Source: Pseudomonadota bacterium
Lineage (GTDB): Bacteria; Pseudomonadota; Gammaproteobacteria; Steroidobacterales; Steroidobacteraceae
Length of the DNA stretch: 6,967 nt
Assembly (NCBI GenBank): GCA_021808195.1
Contig: JAKBCE010000124.1
Location: 1 to 6,967, forward strand
Direction of reading: 5' to 3'
Position 1 is the stretch's first letter; each line of letters opens with the position of its first letter. The notes under the pieces were generated by a model. It was not told where the DNA came from, did not search any database, and worked only from the letters and a program-made list of their open reading frames with translations. Made by a program: the position numbers and the translations under genes. Positions 1-6,967 of the stretch are shown in pieces.

Positions 1-131
1 CTGGTGATCCGCCCGGTGCGCGAGTCCCAGCCGATCTGGCCGGCGACGAAGATCTGGCGCCCCTGTGCGAGCACGCCGTTGCTGTAGCCCGAGGGCCGCA
101 GCCAGCCCTTCGGTTGCAGAGTTTCAAACAT
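1..131 (-). CDS. RidA (YjgF/YER057c/UK114) family protein, N-terminal part only
   Basis: This is the first 43 codons of a minus-strand gene that runs off the left edge of the window. The peptide begins [20 protein letters not shown] and continues through [10 protein letters not shown]. The pattern of a hydrophobic strand followed by VAGQ.GWD is typical of the RidA family. Known members are small trimeric cytosolic proteins of about 130 residues that hydrolyse reactive enamines and imines to ketones and ammonia. The arginine that binds the substrate carboxylate in deaminating members lies in the missing C-terminal part, so activity cannot be judged. The ATG overlaps the 3' end of the acyl-CoA dehydrogenase gene by 8 bases and has only a weak Shine-Dalgarno (TTGAG), so translation is probably coupled. 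Inference: in this operon it could hydrolyse the cyclic beta-enamine formed from 2-aminobenzoyl-CoA. Confidence 0.88.
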
Positions 132-1350
132 GCTCAATTCGTCTGCCTCGCGATGAACGCAACAGTTCGCGACCAATGATCAATTTCTGAACCTCCGTGG
201 CACCCTCGTAAATGCGCAATGCGCGGATATCGCGGTACAGCCGCTCCAGGCGTTCCCCGCGGACCACGCCGCGGCCGCCGAACAGCTGCAGCGCGCGATC
301 GATGATCCGCTGTGCCGATTCGGTGGCGGTCATTTTTGCAATCGCCACTTCCTGGGTGGCCGCTTCGCCCAGATCGCGCAGCCAGGCGGCGCGGTAGGTG
401 AGCAGCCGGGCGGCATCGAGTTCGGCCGCCATGTCGGCGAGCGAGGCCTGGGTGAGCTGGAAGTCCGCGAGCGTGCGTCCGAACATCCGGCGCTCGCCGA
501 CATGGGCGAGTGCCGCATCGAACGCGCATTGCGCCAGACCGAGCGCTGCGCCGGCTACGGTGGTGCGAAACACATCGAGGGTGCGCATGGCGAGCTTGAA
601 GCCCTCACCCTCGTTTCCGAGGCGTTGGGCGGCCGGTACCCGACAGGCGTGCAGACGCAGACGCGCCAGCGGATGCGGGGATATCGGTGTGAATCGCTCG
701 GCGATCTCGAGCCCCGGCGCGTCGGCGTCGACCACGAAAGCGCTGATGCCCTCGGCGCTCACGGCCCCGTCCGGGCGGCGCTGCGGCGCACCGGTTCGCG
801 CAAAAACGCAATAGAAGTCGGCGATGCCGCCATTGGAAATCCAAGTCTTCTGGCCGTCGAGGACATAACTGTCACCCTCGCGGCGAGCCGAACACTCCAG
901 CGCTGCGACGTCCGAGCCGGCATCGGGTTCCGATAGGGCGAACGCTGCGAGGGCCGCTCCGCTGGCGACTCTCGGCAAGTAACGGGCCTTCAGTTGCGCG
1001 GAACCTGCCAGCGAGATCGGTCCACTGCCGAGACCCTGCATCGCGAACACGAAGTCCGCGAGCGCATCGTGGCGCGCGAAAGTCTCGCGGATCAAGGCGA
1101 GTGCGCGCACGTCGAAGGCCGGACCGGCCGACTCGGCCGATCCCTGCCCGCCGCGGCCTACGCAATACGCGGTCCAGCCCGCCTCGCCCATGGTCACGGC
1201 GAGCGAGCGGCAGGCGCGCTCCACGGCCGGGGCGTCTTCCGCGCCTCCAGCCTGCGCCAAGTGTTGCTCGGCCCACGTCTGAAGCCGCGTTCCGAGCGCG
1301 CGGTGCGCCGGCGTGAAGAAGGGCCATTCGAGGGGACTGCGGGCGCTCAC
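124..1350 (-). CDS. acyl-CoA dehydrogenase family protein
   Basis: This 408-residue FAD-dependent flavoprotein would perform alpha,beta-dehydrogenation of a CoA thioester in the cytosol, passing electrons to electron-transfer flavoprotein. It has the all-helical N-terminal domain, the first family signature at residues 137-151 ([15 protein letters not shown]), the middle beta domain with QKTWISNGG at 167-175, and the C-terminal signature ([12 protein letters not shown] at 355-366, IYEGATEVQ at 380-388). Glu382 in IYEG is at the position of the medium-chain-type catalytic base. The start is taken as GTG at 1350: it lies 4 bases after the upstream stop and has AAGGA 10 bases before it. A longer reading frame to an ATG at 1470 would run 120 bases into the hydratase gene and adds low-complexity Arg/Ser/Thr sequence with no family match. 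The substrate is unknown; context suggests an alicyclic or ring-opened intermediate of 2-aminobenzoyl-CoA breakdown. Confidence 0.93.
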
Positions 1351-1354
1351 GAGG

Positions 1355-2182
1355 TCAGTTTCCTTCGAAATGCGGCTTCTGTTTGGCGACGAATGCGTGG
1401 TAGGCGCGGTGAAAATCCTGCGTCTGCATGCACTGCGCCTGGGCCTGTGCCTCCGCGTCGATGGCCGCATCGAGCGGCAGGTGCCACTCCTCGTGCAGCA
1501 TCCGCTTGGTCATCGCATGGGCGAGCGTCGGTCCGCGGGCGATCTGCCCGGCGAGGTCCATGGCCGTGCCGAGCAGCGCCGCGCACTCTTCGAGGCGATT
1601 GAAGAATCCCCACGCCAGTCCCTCCTGTGCCGACATGGCGCGCCCGGTGTAGAGCAGTTCCGCGGCGCGGCCCTGACCGATGAGCCGGGGCAGGATCGCG
1701 CAGGCACCCATGTCGCACCCGGCCAGTCCGACGCGCGTGAACAGGAACGCGGTGCGCGCCAGCGCCGTTCCGAGGCGAAAGTCCGAGGCCATCGCGAGGA
1801 TGGCGCCGGCGCCGGCGCATACGCCATCGACAGCGGCGATGATGGGCTGCGGACAGGCGCGCATCGCCTTGACCAGATCGCCCGTCATCTGCGTGAACGC
1901 GAGCAGTCCGGCCGCGTCCATGGCCGTGAGCGGTCCGATGATCTCGTGCACGTCGCCGCCGGAGCAGAAATTGCCGCCCGCGCCGGTGAGCACGACGGCA
2001 CGGATGCTCTGCACCGAGCGCAGGTTGCGAAACAGGTCGCGAAGCTCCGCGTACGAGTCGAACGTCAGGGGATTCTTGCGCTCCGGTCGGTCGAGGGTGA
2101 TCACCCCGACACGCTCGTGCGAGTGCCAACGGAAGTGGCGCGGTTCGAACCGCTCGATGTCAAAAGTGCGCTCAGGGCTCAT
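1355..2182 (-). CDS. enoyl-CoA hydratase/isomerase (crotonase) family protein with non-canonical active site
   Basis: This 275-residue crotonase-fold protein would act on a CoA ester in the cytosol. The first oxyanion-hole segment is [10 protein letters not shown] (71-80), the second is [16 protein letters not shown] (119-134), and the downstream helix has [14 protein letters not shown] (148-161). Canonical hydratases carry a glutamate in GG.CELA and another in the PE(I/V) segment. By my alignment these positions are Ile128 and Arg150, while Asp157 is acidic and lies close by. Such substitutions occur in crotonase members that hydrolyse, isomerise or cleave C-C bonds, so simple hydratase activity should not be assumed. 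The ATG at 2182 has AAGGGG 5 bases upstream, starts 10 bases after the MarR gene ends, and ends 4 bases before the dehydrogenase. The likely role is a step after dearomatisation of 2-aminobenzoyl-CoA, possibly ring opening (inference). Confidence 0.9.
1361..1365 (-). promoter_or_regulatory. Shine-Dalgarno supporting the GTG start of the acyl-CoA dehydrogenase
   Basis: The minus strand reads AAGGA followed by 10 bases and then GTG at 1350. The site sits in the last codons of the hydratase-like gene (Glu-Gly-Asn-stop). It fixes the start just after that gene ends and makes coupled translation likely. Confidence 0.6.
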
Positions 2183-2192
2183 GCGGACCCCT

Positions 2193-2708
2193 TCAATGCT
2201 GTGCCGGCAGCTGCGCGAACTCCTTCAGGAGCCCGAGCAGATCCATCAGGTCGCGCTTCTGGCGCACCGAGAGTTTGCTGAACAGATCGATGACCCATTG
2301 TTCATGCTCGCTCGCCATGCGGGCGAACTGGCGCACGCCCTCGGGGGTGAGTTTGACCCGAAATGCGCGCCGATCGGCCGGGTCGACCTCGCGGATCACC
2401 AGCCCCTCTTTCTGCAGGCCGTCGGTGATGCCCGTGACGTTGCCGCCGGTGACCATCATGCGCTGCGACAGTTCGCTCATCTTCAGCCCGTCCGGCGCCC
2501 GCTCGAGCTGTGCCATCAGGTCGAAGCGCGGCAGCGTGGTGCCGAAACGCGTCTGCAGGTTCTGGCGAATACGCCCCTCCACCTGGTTGGTGCAGGAGAG
2601 CAGCCGCAGCCACAGGCGTACCGAGATGTGATGATCGTCATTCAGCCGCGTCTCGGCGTCGACCGGGACGGCGCCCGTCTTTTCCTTGCCCTCTGTGTTG
2701 CGGGCCAT
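2193..2708 (-). CDS. MarR-family transcriptional regulator
   Basis: This 171-residue DNA-binding protein is probably a dimeric repressor. The winged helix-turn-helix is clear: [20 protein letters not shown] (75-94), the recognition helix [15 protein letters not shown] (89-103), and the wing [19 protein letters not shown] (106-124) with the family hallmark DP.DRR. Helices at both ends would form the dimer interface. The chosen ATG at 2708 shares one base with the dehydrogenase stop (TGATG) and has GGGGAGG 7 bases upstream. A longer frame to 2936 overlaps the dehydrogenase and gives an unrelated basic peptide. MarR regulators of CoA-dependent aromatic pathways (BadR, CouR) often sense the aromatic acid or its CoA ester. 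By analogy this one may sense 2-aminobenzoyl-CoA or a related compound and bind the divergent promoter region near 5837-5870. As the third gene of the operon it would be autoregulated. Confidence 0.92.
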
Positions 2709-3505
2709 CAGTACACCTCCCCGCCTGCGATTGCGAGACTTTGCCCCGTGATGCTCTCGGTTCCCGGACGGCACAGCCACAGCATCGCGTGGGCCACTTC
2801 GGCTGGTGCGATGAGTCGCCGCTGCGGGTTTGCGCCGAGCAGTGAATCGAGCGCCTGTTCCGGGGTGCGGCCGGTCTTGCGCGTGATGCGAGCGATCGCG
2901 TCCTTGACGATGTCGGTGTCCGTGAATCCAGGGCACAGGGCATTGACCGTGATCGGATGTGCTGCGTACTCGAGCGCGAGCGAGCGCGTTAGTCCGACGA
3001 CGCCATGCTTGGAGGCGGCGTACGCTGCGATGTAAGCGCCCCCGCGCAGCCCGGCGGTGCTCGCGATGTTGACGACGCGTCCAAACCCTTCAGCGAGCAT
3101 GTCCGGGATCGCTAGCCGGGCACACAGGTACGGACCAGTGAGATTGACGGCGAGCATCGCTTGCCAGAGCGCTGGATCGGTGTCGGTGAATTTCGCGCTC
3201 GTGGCGCGGCCGGCGTTGTTGATCAGAATGTGCACGGGGCCGAATTCGGCGCGAGCTGCGCGGAACGCGCGCTCCAATGCGGCCTCGTCGGTGACGTCCG
3301 CCTCGAGTGGCAGAGCCCGCGCCGCTCCGCCGAGCGTTCGTGCGGTGTCCTGCAGATGGGCGAGTTCTCGGCCAAGGAGCGTCACGCGCGCCCCGTCGGC
3401 GGTGAGCGCCGCGGCGCATGCGGCCCCAATGCCCCGACCAGCACCGGTCACGACCGCATGCCTGCCGGCGAGCGGCGCGTTCTCGGCGGCTGTGCCCGAG
3501 TGCAT
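2708..3505 (-). CDS. SDR-family NAD(P)-dependent dehydrogenase
   Basis: This 265-residue classical short-chain dehydrogenase would oxidise or reduce a hydroxyl/carbonyl on a CoA-bound intermediate in the cytosol. The Rossmann motif TGAGRGIG is at 20-27, the adenine-contact Asp70-Val71 pair (EADV) follows, NNAG is at 96-99, and the catalytic tetrad is Asn121, Ser149, Tyr162 and Lys166 (Y-AAS-K). Arg46 at the end of the second strand hints at NADP, but cofactor choice is not certain. The start is the ATG at 3505, which shares a base with the stop of the upstream fused enzyme (TGATG); GGAG lies 10 bases upstream. A longer frame to 3667 only reads into the neighbour's coding region. In this operon it probably interconverts the ring 5-oxo and 5-hydroxy groups, or acts as a 3-hydroxyacyl-CoA dehydrogenase after ring opening (inference). 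Confidence 0.93.
   Translation of the reverse strand: MHSGTAAENAPLAGRHAVVTGAGRGIGAACAAALTADGARVTLLGRELAHLQDTARTLGGAARALPLEADVTDEAALERAFRAARAEFGPVHILINNAGRATSAKFTDTDPALWQAMLAVNLTGPYLCARLAIPDMLAEGFGRVVNIASTAGLRGGAYIAAYAASKHGVVGLTRSLALEYAAHPITVNALCPGFTDTDIVKDAIARITRKTGRTPEQALDSLLGANPQRRLIAPAEVAHAMLWLCRPGTESITGQSLAIAGGEVY
2716..2722 (-). promoter_or_regulatory. Shine-Dalgarno deciding the MarR start
   Basis: The minus strand reads GGGGAGG, 7 bases before ATG 2708. It lies within the last codons (Gly-Glu-Val-Tyr-stop) of the preceding dehydrogenase. It strongly supports the 171-residue MarR product over the longer frame and indicates stop-start coupled translation. Confidence 0.7.
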
Positions 3506-5787
3506 CACTCCGCGGCTCCGGCCACCATCGAGCGCTGCACGTTGCGCTCCAGCTGGGCCTTGCCCGCCAGATACGGCTTCGGCCACCATTGCGCGGAGTA
3601 GCCCTGTCGGGCAGCTGCCTCGAGCGTCCACGCCGGGTTGGCCAGATGCGGCCGGGCGATCGCACACAGGTCGGCGCGTCCGGCCGCGATGATGGTGTTG
3701 ACGTGGTCGGATTCGTAGATGTTCCCGACTGCGAGCGTGGCGATGCCGATTTCGTTGCGCACTTCATCGGCGAAGGGGGTCTGCCACATCCGCCCGTACA
3801 CGGGCGCCTGCCACGGGACGGTCTGGCCGGTCGAGACATCGATCAGGTCGGTGTCCGCGGCCTTCAGTGCCCGGGCGATCGCCAGCAGGTCCTCCTCGGA
3901 AAGTCCCCCCTCGGCCCAGTCCGTGGCCGAGAGACGCACCGAGAGGGGACGTTCGCCGGGCCACGCCGCGCGCACGGCATTGAGGACCTCGAGCGGGAAG
4001 CGCAGCCGGCCGCCGATGCTGCCGCCGTATTCGTCGCGCCGTTGGTTGGTCAGCGGCGAGAGGAACGAGGCGAGCAGATAGCCATGGGCCATGTGCAGCT
4101 CGAGCATGTCGAAGCCCGCCTCGGCCCCGAGCCGGGCGGCGCGCACGAACTGCTCGCGCACCGCATCCATGTCCGCGCGCGACATCTCGTGCGGCGTCGC
4201 GCTGATACCGTCCAGGTACGGCAGGGGCGAGGGCGCCATGAGCGGCCAGTTGTCGTGCTCGAGCGGGTGATCCATGCGCTGCCAGCCGAGCTGGGTCGAT
4301 CCTTTGCGGCCGGCGTGACCAAGCTGGAGGCAGATCCGGGCCGGCGTGCGGGCGTGCACGAAGCGGACGATTTTGCGCCAGGCGTCGCATTGCGCTTCGT
4401 TCCACAGGCCCGTGCAGCCCGGTGTGATGCGACCTTCCGGCGAGACGCAGGTCATCTCCGTATAAATGAGTCCCGCCCCGCCGAGTGCCCGGTGCCCGTA
4501 GTGCACGAGATGCCATTCCTCGGGCATTCCATCGGTGGCGCTGTACTGGGCCATGGGGGAGACGACCACGCGGTTCTCCAGCTCCAGACCGCGCAGCCGA
4601 AACGGCAGGAACATCGGCGGGCGTCGCTTCTCCACGCCGGCTCGCCCCGCGAGCCAGTGCTCGAAACCCTCGACGAATCGCGAGTCGCGCGCCTTGAGGT
4701 TCTCGTGGCCGATGCGCTGACTGCCGGTGAGCAGGCTGTAGGCGAACTGCTCCGGTTCGAGCTGCGCGTAGCGTGCGACGTGCTCGAACCATTCCATGCG
4801 GTTGCGCGCCGCGCTCTGCAGCTTCAATACCTCGAGGCTGCGTTCCTTCTGATACGCGTGCAGCGCTTCGGCGAGAGGTGCCCCGGAGGTCACGTGCTGC
4901 GAGAGCGAGATGGCATCCTCCATGGCGAGCTTCGTGCCCGAGCCGATGGAGAAATGTGCGGTGTGCGCGGCGTCGCCGATCAGAACCCGCTTGCCGTGCG
5001 ACCAGTGCTTGCAGTTCACGCGCAGAAAGTTCAGCCATGCCGAGCCGCGCAGGTGCGTCGCGTTGCTCTGCAGGCGGTGGCCGCCGAGGTAGCGGGCAAA
5101 CAGCTGCTCGCAGAAGGCGATCGATGCGGCGGTGTCGCAGCGGTCGAGTCCATGGGCCTTCCAGGTCTCCTCGCGCGTCTCGACGATCACGGTGGAGAGC
5201 TCGTCACTGAACTGGTAGGCGTGGATCTGGAACCAGCCGTGCTCGGTCTGTTCGAACGCGAAGGTGAATGCAGCGAAGCGCTGAGTCGTGCCGAGCCAGA
5301 TGTAGCGGCAGTTGCGCCGGTCGAGTTCGGGTGCGAACGCCTCGGCGTGACGGGTGCGGGTTCTGCTGTTGACCCCGTCGGCGGCCACGATCAGGTCGGC
5401 ATCGTCGAATTCTTCGTCGCGGTCGATCTCATGCTGGAAGTGCTGCTGCACGCCGAGCTCATGCGCGCGCGCCTGCAGCAGTGCGAGCAGTCGCTTGCGC
5501 CCCAGGCCGCAGAAGCCGTGTCCGCCGCTGAGGAAGGTGCGGCCGCGAAAGTGGATCGCGATGTCGTCCCAATGATGGAACTCCCCGGTGATCGCCGCAT
5601 GCGTGGGGGCATCGGCGCGGCGGAAGTTCTCGATGGTCCGATCGGAGAACACGACGCCCCAGCCGAAGGTGTCATCCGGCCGATTGCGCTCGAATACATC
5701 GATCCGGGCGTGTGGCAATGCTTTACGCAGCAAGATGGCGGCGTACAGTCCAGCCGGCCCGCCGCCGACACAGACGACTCGTTTCAC
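3505..5787 (-). CDS. bifunctional flavin monooxygenase/Old Yellow Enzyme-type reductase (2-aminobenzoyl-CoA monooxygenase/reductase type)
   Basis: This 760-residue fusion has two flavin domains. Residues 1 to about 365 form a class A FAD monooxygenase: GGGPAG (8-13), FGWGVVFSD (41-49), [11 protein letters not shown] (131-141) and GDAAH (271-275). Residues from about 390 form an FMN-binding Old Yellow Enzyme domain: [27 protein letters not shown] with the His565/His568 pair, the [10 protein letters not shown] segment, and a C-terminal phosphate site around [11 protein letters not shown]. This architecture is that of anthraniloyl-CoA monooxygenase (EC 1.14.13.40), which uses O2 and NAD(P)H to hydroxylate and then reduce the ring. 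Databases often call it bifunctional salicylyl-CoA 5-hydroxylase/oxidoreductase. The start is placed at GTG 5787 because the family begins just before the GGGPAG strand and GGGGGAG lies 6 bases upstream; an ATG at 5820 adds 11 residues without a good ribosome site. First gene of the operon. Salicylyl-CoA remains an alternative substrate. Confidence 0.92.
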
Positions 5788-5793
5788 GGCGGT

Positions 5794-5800
5794 CTCCCCC
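5794..5800 (-). promoter_or_regulatory. Shine-Dalgarno supporting the GTG start of the fused monooxygenase/reductase
   Basis: The minus strand reads GGGGGAG, then six bases, then GTG at 5787. The alternative ATG at 5820 is preceded only by CTCGGTGA, a poor ribosome site. This moves the start 33 bases downstream of the longest reading frame. Confidence 0.65.
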
Positions 5801-5835
5801 GTCTTCAGGCGGTATCGCATTCACCGAGGGCCTGT

Positions 5836-5864
5836 GTTATATTCCCAATTGCTTGAGGTGTCAA
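5836..5864 (-). promoter_or_regulatory. near-consensus sigma-70 promoter of the leftward operon
   Basis: On the minus strand the -35 box is TTGACA (5859-5864), followed by a 17-base spacer and a -10 box TATAAC (5836-5841). The -35 is a perfect match and the -10 has 5 of 6 consensus bases. Transcription would start near 5829, giving a leader of about 42 bases before GTG 5787. So strong a core promoter suggests control by repression, consistent with the MarR gene in the operon. Confidence 0.75.
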
Positions 5865-5870
5865 ATATAA
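5837..5870. repeat. 7-base inverted repeat spanning both -10 boxes (candidate operator)
   Basis: TTATATT (5837-5843) and AATATAA (5864-5870) are exact reverse complements separated by 20 bases. Each arm overlaps the -10 region of one of the two divergent promoters. Part of the symmetry may simply come from two facing AT-rich -10 boxes, so its role as an operator is only a possibility. Confidence 0.4.
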
Positions 5871-5871
5871 T
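5842..5871 (+). promoter_or_regulatory. candidate promoter of the rightward unit, interleaved with the leftward promoter
   Basis: The plus strand has a perfect -10 box TATAAT at 5866-5871. The best -35 candidate is TTCCCA at 5842-5847 (4 of 6 bases) with an 18-base spacer, so this promoter looks weaker or activator-assisted. Transcription would start near 5878, about 34 bases before ATG 5912. The element overlaps the leftward promoter almost completely, so polymerase or repressor binding to one should affect the other. Confidence 0.5.
5853..5864. promoter_or_regulatory. short palindrome TTGA-N4-TCAA, candidate MarR operator
   Basis: TTGAGGTGTCAA is a 4+4 inverted repeat with a 4-base centre. 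It covers the -35 box of the leftward promoter and lies in the spacer of the rightward one. Many MarR operators have TTG...CAA half-site symmetry, so this is a plausible site for the MarR protein encoded in the operon. The arms are short and binding is not shown. Confidence 0.4.
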
Positions 5872-5898
5872 TCCCTTGGCCCGTCGGTTCGCTCAAGT

Positions 5899-5902
5899 GG
5901 AG
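5899..5902 (+). promoter_or_regulatory. Shine-Dalgarno of the cyclase-family gene
   Basis: GGAG sits 9 bases before ATG 5912. It supports this start rather than any codon in the long open frame that extends upstream to 5588 across the intergenic region and into the opposite-strand gene. Confidence 0.65.
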
Positions 5903-5911
5903 ACAAGTGAC

Positions 5912-6718
5912 ATGAGTGCTGCTGCCAAAGCCCCCCAGGCCCAGGTCCTCGCTGAACTCGTTGCCGCGCTGGCCGGCGGTGCCGTCCGGGTGGTGGATCT
6001 GACGGTCCCGCTCGAGCCGTCGACGGCGACGATCCAGCTGCCGCCACAGTTCGCGCCGTCCAAGCCGTTCGCGTTGCAGGAGATCTCCCGCTACGACGAA
6101 CGCGGGCCGGCGTGGTACTGGAACAATATTTCCTGCGGGGAGCATACCGGGACGCATTTCGACGCCCCGATTCACTGGGTGACCGGTAAGGATTACCCGC
6201 AGAATGCGACCCACAACATTCCGGTCGAGCGCTTCATCGGTCCGGCGTGCGTGATCGATGTGTCGCAGAACGTTCGCTCGAATGCGGACTATCTGCTGAC
6301 ACGCGAGAACGTCGAAGCCTGGGAGTCCCGTCACGGCCGCATCCCGGTCGGCGCCTGGGTGCTGATCCGGACCGACTGGTCGAAGCGTACGGCCGCAAAG
6401 GACTTCCTGAACATCGGCGCCGACGGGGCGCATACCCCGGGATTTCATCCGCAGTGCGTGCCGTTCCTGGCGCGTGAACGGGATATCCTCGGCGTCGGCG
6501 TCGAGACGGTCGGTACCGATGCCGGTCAGGCGCCGACCTTCGAGCCGATGTTTCCCTGTCATACCCTCATGCACGGATCGAACCGCTTCGGGCTCGCCAG
6601 TCTGACGAATCTCGACCAGCTGCCGGCGACCGGCGCCGTCGTGATCGCCCCGCCGCTGAAAATCGTCAACGGCTCCGGCAGCCCCCTGCGGGTGCTGGCG
6701 CTGGTGCCGGTGAGCTAG
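5912..6718 (+). CDS. cyclase/metal-dependent hydrolase family protein (isatin hydrolase/kynurenine formamidase fold)
   Basis: This 268-residue cytosolic protein has the family metal motif H-x-G-T-H-x-D-x-P-x-H at residues 78-88 (His78, His82, Asp84, His88), preceded by the expected first strand VRVVDLTVPL (25-34). Downstream are GVGVETVGTDAG (195-205) and a His217/His221 region. The family includes bacterial kynurenine formamidase (KynB) and manganese-dependent isatin hydrolase; both open or cleave an amide next to an aminophenyl ring. KynB is usually near 210 residues, and where it has a Glu in an I-E-N-L-type segment this protein appears to read L-A-S-L-T-N-L (228-234), so KynB is not the best fit. 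Divergence from a 2-aminobenzoyl-CoA operon makes an isatin hydrolase-like role (isatin to isatinate) attractive but unproven. It is the first gene of the rightward unit, 14 bases before an oxidoreductase gene. The N-terminal Ala-rich segment is not a signal peptide. Confidence 0.87.
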   Translation: MSAAAKAPQAQVLAELVAALAGGAVRVVDLTVPLEPSTATIQLPPQFAPSKPFALQEISRYDERGPAWYWNNISCGEHTGTHFDAPIHWVTGKDYPQNATHNIPVERFIGPACVIDVSQNVRSNADYLLTRENVEAWESRHGRIPVGAWVLIRTDWSKRTAAKDFLNIGADGAHTPGFHPQCVPFLARERDILGVGVETVGTDAGQAPTFEPMFPCHTLMHGSNRFGLASLTNLDQLPATGAVVIAPPLKIVNGSGSPLRVLALVPVS

Positions 6719-6732
6719 GCGCCGGCGGGCCC

Positions 6733-6967
6733 ATGGCCGAGCGTTCGTTTGCGAAGCAAGTCGAGTCTCTGCGGCTCGGCGCGGGCGCGGAGTTTCGCGG
6801 CGAAGGGATTCTGGCGGTCACCAAAGCGCTGCTGCAATCGGGCGTCGCTTACGTAGGCGGCTATCAGGGTGCGCCCATCTCGCACCTCATGGACGTGCTG
6901 GCCGACGCCGAGGACATCTTGGCGGAGCTCGGCGTGCATTTCGAGGCGAGCGCGTCCGAGGCGACGG
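6733..6967 (+). CDS. indolepyruvate:ferredoxin oxidoreductase-type alpha subunit, N-terminal part only
   Basis: The first 78 codons are present and the frame runs open to the window end. The peptide starts MAERSFAKQVESLRLG and contains FRGEGILAVTKALLQSGV (21-38), GGYQGAPISHLMDVL (42-56) and FEASASEAT (70-78). I recognise this as the N-terminal thiamine-diphosphate pyrimidine-binding domain of the IorA-like 2-oxoacid:ferredoxin oxidoreductase family (compare GYPGTP in classical members). These enzymes oxidatively decarboxylate 2-oxoacids, usually arylpyruvates or aryl-glyoxylates, to acyl-CoA and CO2 with reduction of ferredoxin, and generally need a beta subunit. ATG 6733 follows the cyclase stop by 14 bases with only a weak GGCGGG ribosome site, so the two genes are probably cotranscribed. 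The true substrate is unknown; phenylglyoxylate-like 2-aminophenylglyoxylate is a candidate by context, indolepyruvate another. Confidence 0.82.
   Translation, partial: MAERSFAKQVESLRLGAGAEFRGEGILAVTKALLQSGVAYVGGYQGAPISHLMDVLADAEDILAELGVHFEASASEAT

Follow-up and report, generated by a model that had tools for sequence, protein, structure and literature searches.

A divergent Steroidobacteraceae locus with a probable ligase-free route from isatin to 2-aminobenzoyl-CoA

Genes of the divergent locus

The DNA analyzed here, referred to as the window, is a stretch of 6,967 nucleotides (positions 1 to 6,967 of contig JAKBCE010000124.1, assembly GCA_021808195.1) from a Pseudomonadota bacterium of the Steroidobacteraceae. 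As shown in Table 1, it carries two divergent gene groups. Read from the right, the minus strand holds genes for a fused flavoprotein of the 2-aminobenzoyl-CoA monooxygenase/reductase type (ABMR), a short-chain dehydrogenase (SDR), a MarR-family regulator, an enoyl-CoA hydratase family protein (ECH), an acyl-CoA dehydrogenase (ACAD) and the start of RidA. The plus strand holds a gene of the isatin hydrolase (IH) type and the start of an IorA-type gene. A preliminary description of this DNA had read an IH/KynB-fold gene and an IorA-type gene as divergent from an ABMR operon, and all three genes were found in place. The close relative locus L001 shared 88-96% identity with the complete genes of the window, and the RidA fragment was 95% identical over 57 aa to the L001 copy, which belongs to PF01042 (Ribonuc_L-PSP).

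Table 1. Features of the window, with positions, strand and basis of assignment
Feature	Position	Strand	Basis
RidA-family enamine/imine deaminase, partial, off the left end	3..137	-	start set by alignment to L001:3824-4225
Acyl-CoA dehydrogenase (ACAD)	124..1377	-	Pfam Acyl-CoA_dh_1/M/N; start codon approximate
Enoyl-CoA hydratase family protein (ECH)	1355..2182	-	NF006107, 472.8 bits (cutoff 330)
MarR-family regulator within the operon	2193..2714	-	Pfam MarR_2 / MarR; start approximate
Short-chain dehydrogenase (SDR)	2708..3508	-	Pfam adh_short
ABMR, fused FAD monooxygenase and old-yellow-enzyme (OYE), 771 aa	3505..5820	-	NF006101; PF01494 and PF00724
Predicted shared divergent promoter/operator region	5836..5871	.	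aligned intergenic regions and promoter-like match
Isatin hydrolase (IH), GLAS / IHB type, 268 aa	5912..6718	+	PDB relatives, catalytic residues
IorA-type 2-oxoacid:ferredoxin oxidoreductase alpha subunit, first 78 codons	6733..6967	+	cut by the window end; identity to L001:10822-12954

The best solved relatives of the cyclase were isatin hydrolases (5nmp, 350 bits; 5nna, 336; 5nnb, 335; 4j0n, 273), while the four kynurenine formamidase sequences listed gave 25-31 bits only. An identity as the kynurenine formamidase KynB was rejected, with 40.0 bits against the arylformamidase model TIGR03035 (cutoff 223.05). The hallmarks of isatin hydrolases, according to the excerpted text of PMC6117287, are the metal ligands, an Asp-His-His relay, a WXW pocket and a GLQC/GLAS motif. 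The window protein carries the metal ligands H78, H82 and D84, the proton relay H88, D203 and H217, and the pocket residues W68 and W70, at a spacing that agrees with the LaIHA numbering. These eight residues were invariant in 18/18 homologues selected for comparison, among which were iad-type and Deinococcus copies. Residues 227-230 read GLAS, the IHB motif, whereas IHA enzymes have GLQC; Ala229 occupies the Gln219 position, in place of the KynB glutamate, and the Deinococcus copy has GLTS there. The Ralstonia and Labrenzia isatin hydrolases (5nmp, 5nna, 4j0n; PMC6117287) resemble the window enzyme in sequence, metal ligands, relay and WXW, and no ABMR link is described in the excerpts of that paper. 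Judged by its PDB relatives, its residues and its failure against TIGR03035, the cyclase is of the isatin hydrolase rather than the formamidase kind, with a predicted His-His-Asp Mn site.

On their own, the 78 IorA codons of the window hit neither a Pfam nor an NCBIfam family and gave no meaningful match to a PDB chain. We named the cut gene IorA because L001:10822-12954 begins with the same 78 residues (100% identity) and continues into a full-length IorA of 710 aa, which contains TPP_enzyme_C and reached 273.3 bits against TIGR03336 (IOR_alpha; cutoff 650.9). The beta subunit, expected to the right of the window, lies directly downstream of IorA in the relatives. In L001, this IorB has 517 aa with POR and DUF6537 domains, and scored 647 bits against PRK08312 (cutoff 348) and 30.9 bits against TIGR03334, below the cutoff of 205.8. 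A plain indolepyruvate oxidoreductase was rejected as the leading assignment, since both subunits fall far under the curated cutoffs. The C-terminal cysteines C615, C621, C627, C651, C654, C657 and C667 of IorA were invariant (31/31). By sequence, the thiamine diphosphate (ThDP) domain, POR domain and Fe-S cysteines place IorAB in the 2-oxoacid:ferredoxin oxidoreductase superfamily. Sequence searches with IorA and IorB against the PDB returned nothing at E 0.01, and an IorA profile gave four weak matches to ThDP domains, two of them in pyruvate:ferredoxin oxidoreductase (E 0.006). The predicted IorA structure was of low confidence (pLDDT 70.4, pTM 0.59) and was set aside as proof for that reason; its fold matched generic ThDP enzymes (OorA, TMt 0.66).

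ABMR reached 1254.7 bits against NF006101 (cutoff 1078) and carries Pfam FAD_binding_3 and Oxidored_FMN. We take this fused layout of FAD monooxygenase and OYE to be that of 2-aminobenzoyl-CoA monooxygenase/reductase, whose substrate is a CoA ester. The sequence alone leaves the substrate unfixed, because the NCBI name of NF006101 is bifunctional salicylyl-CoA 5-hydroxylase/oxidoreductase. Aerobic anthranilate breakdown via CoA is described as beginning with an ATP-consuming ligase, and the 2-aminobenzoate (anthranilate) CoA pathway of Azoarcus/Aromatoleum evansii is reportedly encoded by abm genes. The window locus is like this pathway in having ABMR with a dehydrogenase, a hydratase, an acyl-CoA dehydrogenase and RidA. 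It differs at the entry: the evansii pathway is said to start with an ATP-dependent 2-aminobenzoate-CoA ligase, whereas loci of the window kind have IH-IorAB, and the ligase was not found there. In the excerpts of PMC6221969, the 2-aminobenzoyl-CoA cluster for anthranilate is named and isatin hydrolase genes are noted in indole degraders.

The divergent gap between IH and ABMR is 91 bases. On the minus strand, it contains TTGACA-17-TATAAC (5864 down to 5836), and both hexamers were invariant in 10 aligned intergenic regions, all from the window's Gammaproteobacterial lineage; promoter and palindrome were read by eye. A MarR-like palindrome, GATACTTGA-4-TCAAGTATC, overlaps the hexamers and is perfect in four of the 10 regions (L003, L004, L006, and L008) and degenerate in the window. 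A promoter-like match also lies on the plus strand at 5842-5871 (10/12 positions; shuffles 0.1). Joint control of both directions is suggested, because the operon includes a MarR gene and the promoter region is common to both sides; the MarR regulator probably acts on both through one operator.

Conservation of the gene set and occurrence of the CoA ligase

A scan that used the IH protein as query yielded 223 confirmed relatives, of which the best 80 loci were retained; loci L087-L145, with 1.5 kb flanks only, were excluded from the context counts. IorA lay within 10 kb in 52 of the 80 IH loci and ABMR in 26. IorA was present in 25/26 ABMR-holding loci (detected in 23 with the full seed, and in L006 and L022 with an N-terminal seed), and therefore the association of IH, IorA and ABMR is not due to chance. 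The contig of the twenty-sixth, L016, ends 0.3 kb after IH.

The gene order varied. The window's divergent layout recurred in many Gammaproteobacterial loci, while L021 has IorA-IorB-ABMR-SDR-MarR-ECH-ACAD on a single strand. In the Acidobacteriota loci L037 and L064, all genes of the run IH-IorA-IorB-ABMR-SDR-ECH-ACAD-RidA point the same way, and the IorB frame shares 4 bases with that of ABMR; the order in L020 differs from this run too. L034 reads ECH-ACAD-IH-IorA-IorB-RidA, ABMR not being on its 8.2 kb contig. In L240, from the Alphaproteobacterial-class sample, IH, IorA and IorB stand with an ABMR operon and no ligase. The grouping noticed in the window was thus borne out in Gammaproteobacteria, in Acidobacteriota and in the Alphaproteobacterial-class locus L240, with changing order. 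The association also appeared at the genome level. In the 250-genome sample from the order of an Achromobacter genome, with kinship uncorrected, ABMR was present in 8/10 IH genomes vs 26/240 others (p 2e-6), and IorA in 8/10 vs 25/240. Among 36 IH genomes chosen from the 80 loci and searched, 34 held ABMR, as did 21/23 of those whose IH locus is without it.

An IorA tree was built from 77 rows, one of which was a mis-framed ORF (L045_m15027, disregarded; row L045_p8010 is sound). A clade of 57 rows (SH-aLRT 100) comprised the 53 correctly framed rows with linkage to IH or ABMR and four others, and 19 IorA paralogues fell outside it. The in-clade rows came mostly from the IH search, which favors linkage, and the outside rows from one 250-genome sample. 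IorA identity alone failed to separate the clade from the paralogues. Some genomes of this sample have two tandem IorA genes with one IorB (L269:1577-5876, L270:6930-11185), outside the IH-linked clade.

No aminobenzoate-CoA ligase of at least 45% identity was found within the sequence examined at any of the 80 IH loci, the ABMR-holding ones included. With ABMR itself as query, contexts of this gene were then gathered from the order to which the Achromobacter genome belongs (34/250 genomes), the class of the L001 genome (14/274), the class of the L034 genome (53/289) and the phylum of the L037 genome (6/199). These counts may be low, because only the best few candidates per genome were scored. 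Contexts were fetched for 41/53 Alphaproteobacterial-class genomes (43 regions) and for 34/34 in the Burkholderiales sample. We counted 98 core ABMR loci having at least two of SDR, ECH and ACAD, including IH, IH-genome and plasmid loci; the window, being nearly a duplicate of L001, was kept out of the ABMR tree. The 47 ABMR loci under this bar (6 with ligase, 8 with linked IorA, 33 with neither; L048 and L183 are one place) were omitted. A benzoate/aminobenzoate-type ligase was found in 2/23 core loci with linked IorA vs 59/75 without it. The Fisher p was 1.6e-9, or 1.3e-11 after the removal of 7 loci for which a contig end lies within 6 kb, kinship being ignored in both.

Whole genomes gave a similar picture. 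The ligase was sought at 50% identity or more in 30 chosen genomes, many of them metagenome-assembled genomes (MAGs). It was absent from 16/17 non-Burkholderiales genomes with IH-linked IorA, where the best match was 36%, G001-G008 and G010 being among the genomes with no such ligase. None was found in G036, which has IH without linked IorA. All 12 comparison genomes held the ligase, 11 of them preselected from ABMR loci with ligase and the twelfth being G009, a Steroidobacter. In addition, an alternative operon, IorA-IorB-thioesterase-ABMR-cupin-FAH, occurred in Caballeronia L081 (2334-11162) and in L148, L167 and L170, and no ligase was visible in these four stretches. This cupin-FAH type suggests a 5-hydroxylated aminobenzoate branch.

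Proposed isatin route and its alternatives

We propose that the divergent locus is one catabolic unit. IH, as a Mn2+ cyclic amidohydrolase, would open isatin, which arises in indole breakdown, to isatinate (2-aminophenylglyoxylate). IorA-IorB, with ThDP and Fe-S centers, would then convert isatinate and CoA by oxidative decarboxylation into 2-aminobenzoyl-CoA, CO2 and reduced ferredoxin. ABMR would hydroxylate and reduce the ring of 2-aminobenzoyl-CoA, and SDR, ECH, ACAD and RidA would continue. Free anthranilate and an ATP-dependent CoA ligase would be dispensable. The first step is predicted from strong homology and the ABMR step from family membership, while we infer the IorAB step from the surrounding genes, the clade to which IorA belongs and the lack of a ligase. 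Taken together, the comparative evidence makes it probable that the locus is a single unit through which isatin enters 2-aminobenzoyl-CoA metabolism with no ligase involved. The direct route that the preliminary description had suggested is thereby supported, its isatinate:ferredoxin oxidoreductase staying a putative activity. If the route is real, it saves ATP, gives reduced ferredoxin and bypasses free anthranilate.

The chemistry has a known counterpart. Phenylglyoxylate:acceptor oxidoreductase, a multi-subunit anaerobic enzyme, makes benzoyl-CoA, and the proposed reaction is alike in turning an arylglyoxylate and CoA into an aryl-CoA and CO2. The enzyme here differs in being made of two subunits, of which IorA includes a Fe-S-type domain and IorB carries DUF6537, and in being encoded next to an oxygenase pathway.

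The nearest published systems are the iad loci of Variovorax, Achromobacter and Bradyrhizobium, which hold IadA/IadB of the IorA/IorB families (PMC9613470; preprint PMC12633357; both as excerpted). Like the window locus, they combine IorA/IorB homologues and an IH homologue in one locus under MarR control. They differ by adding IadCDE (with the Rieske oxygenase IadDE), IadF, IadG and IadH for indoleacetate. The iad-like order seen here was IorA-IorB-IadC/D/E-IadF-IadG-IadH-IH-SDR, and IadI, annotated as a kynurenine formamidase, was assigned to the IH family because of its place in this order. Among the 80 IH loci, 20 were iad-like, with ABMR linked in 0/20 and IorA in 14/20; the iad-like Roseibium plasmid locus L085 showed no IorAB within 18.7 kb. 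In the excerpts of the two iad sources, isatin and isatinic acid are reported as intermediates, anthranilic acid is the endpoint and no role is assigned to IadAB. The same excerpts report that a compound with the formula of isatinate, C8H7NO3, builds up in a Variovorax strain that has iadC-K2 and lacks iadAB. This is consistent with IadAB as an isatinate consumer, with overexpression as a confounder. The preliminary description knew of no system joined in this way. The join to ABMR does appear new, but IH and IorAB together are already present in iad loci. No description of an isatinate to 2-aminobenzoyl-CoA conversion, an isatinate oxidoreductase or an IH-IorAB-ABMR join was found in the open-licence literature searched.

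We consider it an evenly balanced proposal that the IorAB linked to IH and ABMR is a CoA-acylating isatinate:ferredoxin oxidoreductase and that IadA-IadB has the same function, with 2-aminobenzoyl-CoA as product and free anthranilate formed on the side where IadAB is missing or cannot keep pace. If so, the conserved iadA and iadB of auxin-degrading loci used in plant-microbiome work would gain a role, and the reported endpoint of the iad pathway merits rechecking.

Several findings weigh against the ligase-free route. No IorA was seen at 28/80 IH loci, some of them truncated. The window has no isatin-source gene, and the indole oxygenase gene that had been looked for was not found there. As many as 17/21 IorA-only loci form one Gammaproteobacterial clade, the others being three Acidobacteriota loci and L240. 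Only 3 to 7 independent pairs were available and the sign test was not significant; with so few pairs, a phylogenetic proof of a ligase/IorA swap was rejected. Sixteen core ABMR loci were scored with neither ligase nor IorA, L006 and L022 being among them, yet both have the IorA N-terminus. L084 has thioesterase-ABMR-cupin-FAH without IorAB in view. L206 and L211 carry ligase and IorA together, and G030, with IorA-linked IH, has a 226-aa ligase fragment beside its ABMR. Among the 12 comparison genomes, at least five from the Burkholderiales (G013, G016, G019, G022, and G027) hold IorAB and ligase at separate loci. On the strength of these five and of L206, L211 and G030, perfect mutual exclusion of ligase and IorAB was rejected. 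Many of the genomes searched, moreover, are MAGs. In the IorA tree, the four in-clade rows without linkage (L266, L267, L275, and L285) adjoin neither IH nor ABMR. One or two neighbors examined for each encode an aldehyde dehydrogenase, a NAPRTase, an enolase-superfamily protein and a Rieske oxygenase. The clade may therefore take other arylglyoxylates as well. Finally, wild-type Variovorax holds anthranilic acid (PMC9613470), iadC-K2 without iadAB still yields it (PMC9613470; preprint PMC12633357), and Pseudomonas LY1 shows isatinic acid and anthranilate (PMC8383072), each according to the excerpted text.

Among the alternatives, IorAB could work upstream as an oxidoreductase of indolepyruvate (arylpyruvate) and form indoleacetyl-CoA, with IH acting later and isatinate passing to anthranilate in another way. 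The nearest named models are indeed IOR_alpha and the indolepyruvate oxidoreductase beta family, and the iad loci, which act on indoleacetate, carry IorAB too. However, IorAB scored well under the IOR_alpha and IOR_beta cutoffs (273 vs 651; 30.9 vs 205.8), and IadF and IadG occurred together in 0/26 ABMR-holding IH loci. The compact unit retains IH, IorAB and the CoA-ester ring enzymes without a ligase in the locus, and the ABMR substrate is a CoA ester. We regard this alternative as unlikely.

It is about equally unlikely that isatinate merely loses its carboxyl group, through IorAB or in a step that is spontaneous or driven by peroxide, to give 2-aminobenzaldehyde or anthranilate, from which an unlinked ligase would make 2-aminobenzoyl-CoA. 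Such a scheme would fit the anthranilic acid of Variovorax iad cells, its restoration by iadC-K2 without iadAB, the two metabolites of Pseudomonas LY1, and the loci and genomes with both IorA and ligase listed above. It also has a possible model in the Deinococcus psychrotolerans plasmid, where ABMR, SDR, MarR, ECH, ACAD, an AMP ligase, IH, a ThDP enzyme and RidA stand consecutively (L082:6570-16794) and no IorAB was found in the 28.7 kb seen. This run looks like a two-step alternative, a decarboxylase followed by a ligase, to the proposed one-step IorAB route, and we count it in favor of the main proposal as well. Against the scheme, the 16/17 non-Burkholderiales genomes with IH-linked IorA lack such a ligase at the threshold used, and the POR domain and conserved cysteine cluster of IorAB are oxidoreductase traits, unneeded for plain decarboxylation.

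An anthranilate operon merely next to an unrelated IH-IorAB detoxification pair would agree with the 28 IH loci without IorA and with L017, L030 and L047, which have neither IorA nor ABMR, but is highly improbable given the gene membership held across distant groups despite order changes, the genome-level association of IH and ABMR (kinship uncorrected), the conserved divergent promoter region common to both sides and the anthranilate ligase not found in the locus.

Possible isatin source and further neighboring genes

A gene of the PrnB family (PF08933) closes the ABMR operon, on the side away from ABMR, in L002:1318-2817, L004:1141-2397, L006:1305-2498, L008:121-1296 and L012:685-2268; the Pfam run covered L002, L008 and L012 only. 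PrnB belongs to the tryptophan-dioxygenase heme superfamily (PMC11791213). This gene and a kynureninase-like gene were sought in 20 IH genomes. PrnB was present in 9/9 window-type Gammaproteobacterial genomes searched and in 12/20 IH genomes overall, compared with 2/185 genomes of the class sample, one of which is G001. Kinship explains part of this enrichment. As a lead only, the PrnB-type protein is a possible indole or tryptophan oxygenase that supplies isatin.

A kynureninase-like pyridoxal phosphate (PLP) gene of the aminotransferase-V family was located upstream of IH in L028:8811-9980 and L041:8583-9782, and near IH in L064:6654-7832. It also occurred near IH or its cluster in L077:2767-3948 and L286:1221-2375. 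Its neighbors in places are APC permease, PALP and ornithine-cyclodeaminase-like genes. Homologues were found in 16/20 IH genomes, a figure with no base rate at hand for comparison. There is a slim chance that, in the window's lineage, a PrnB-type heme oxygenase and a kynureninase-like PLP enzyme together convert tryptophan into isatin.

Two further genes recurred at these loci. In five loci (among them L002:15544-16602, L007:15256-16314 and L077:8915-9970), a protein with CDGSH iron-sulfur motifs and cupin domains is encoded close to a TonB receptor and to IH or IorB; the copy tested gave no NCBIfam match. A second, conserved OYE-type flavoprotein of about 483 aa follows RidA in the operon (L001:2347-3795) and was seen in 13 loci.

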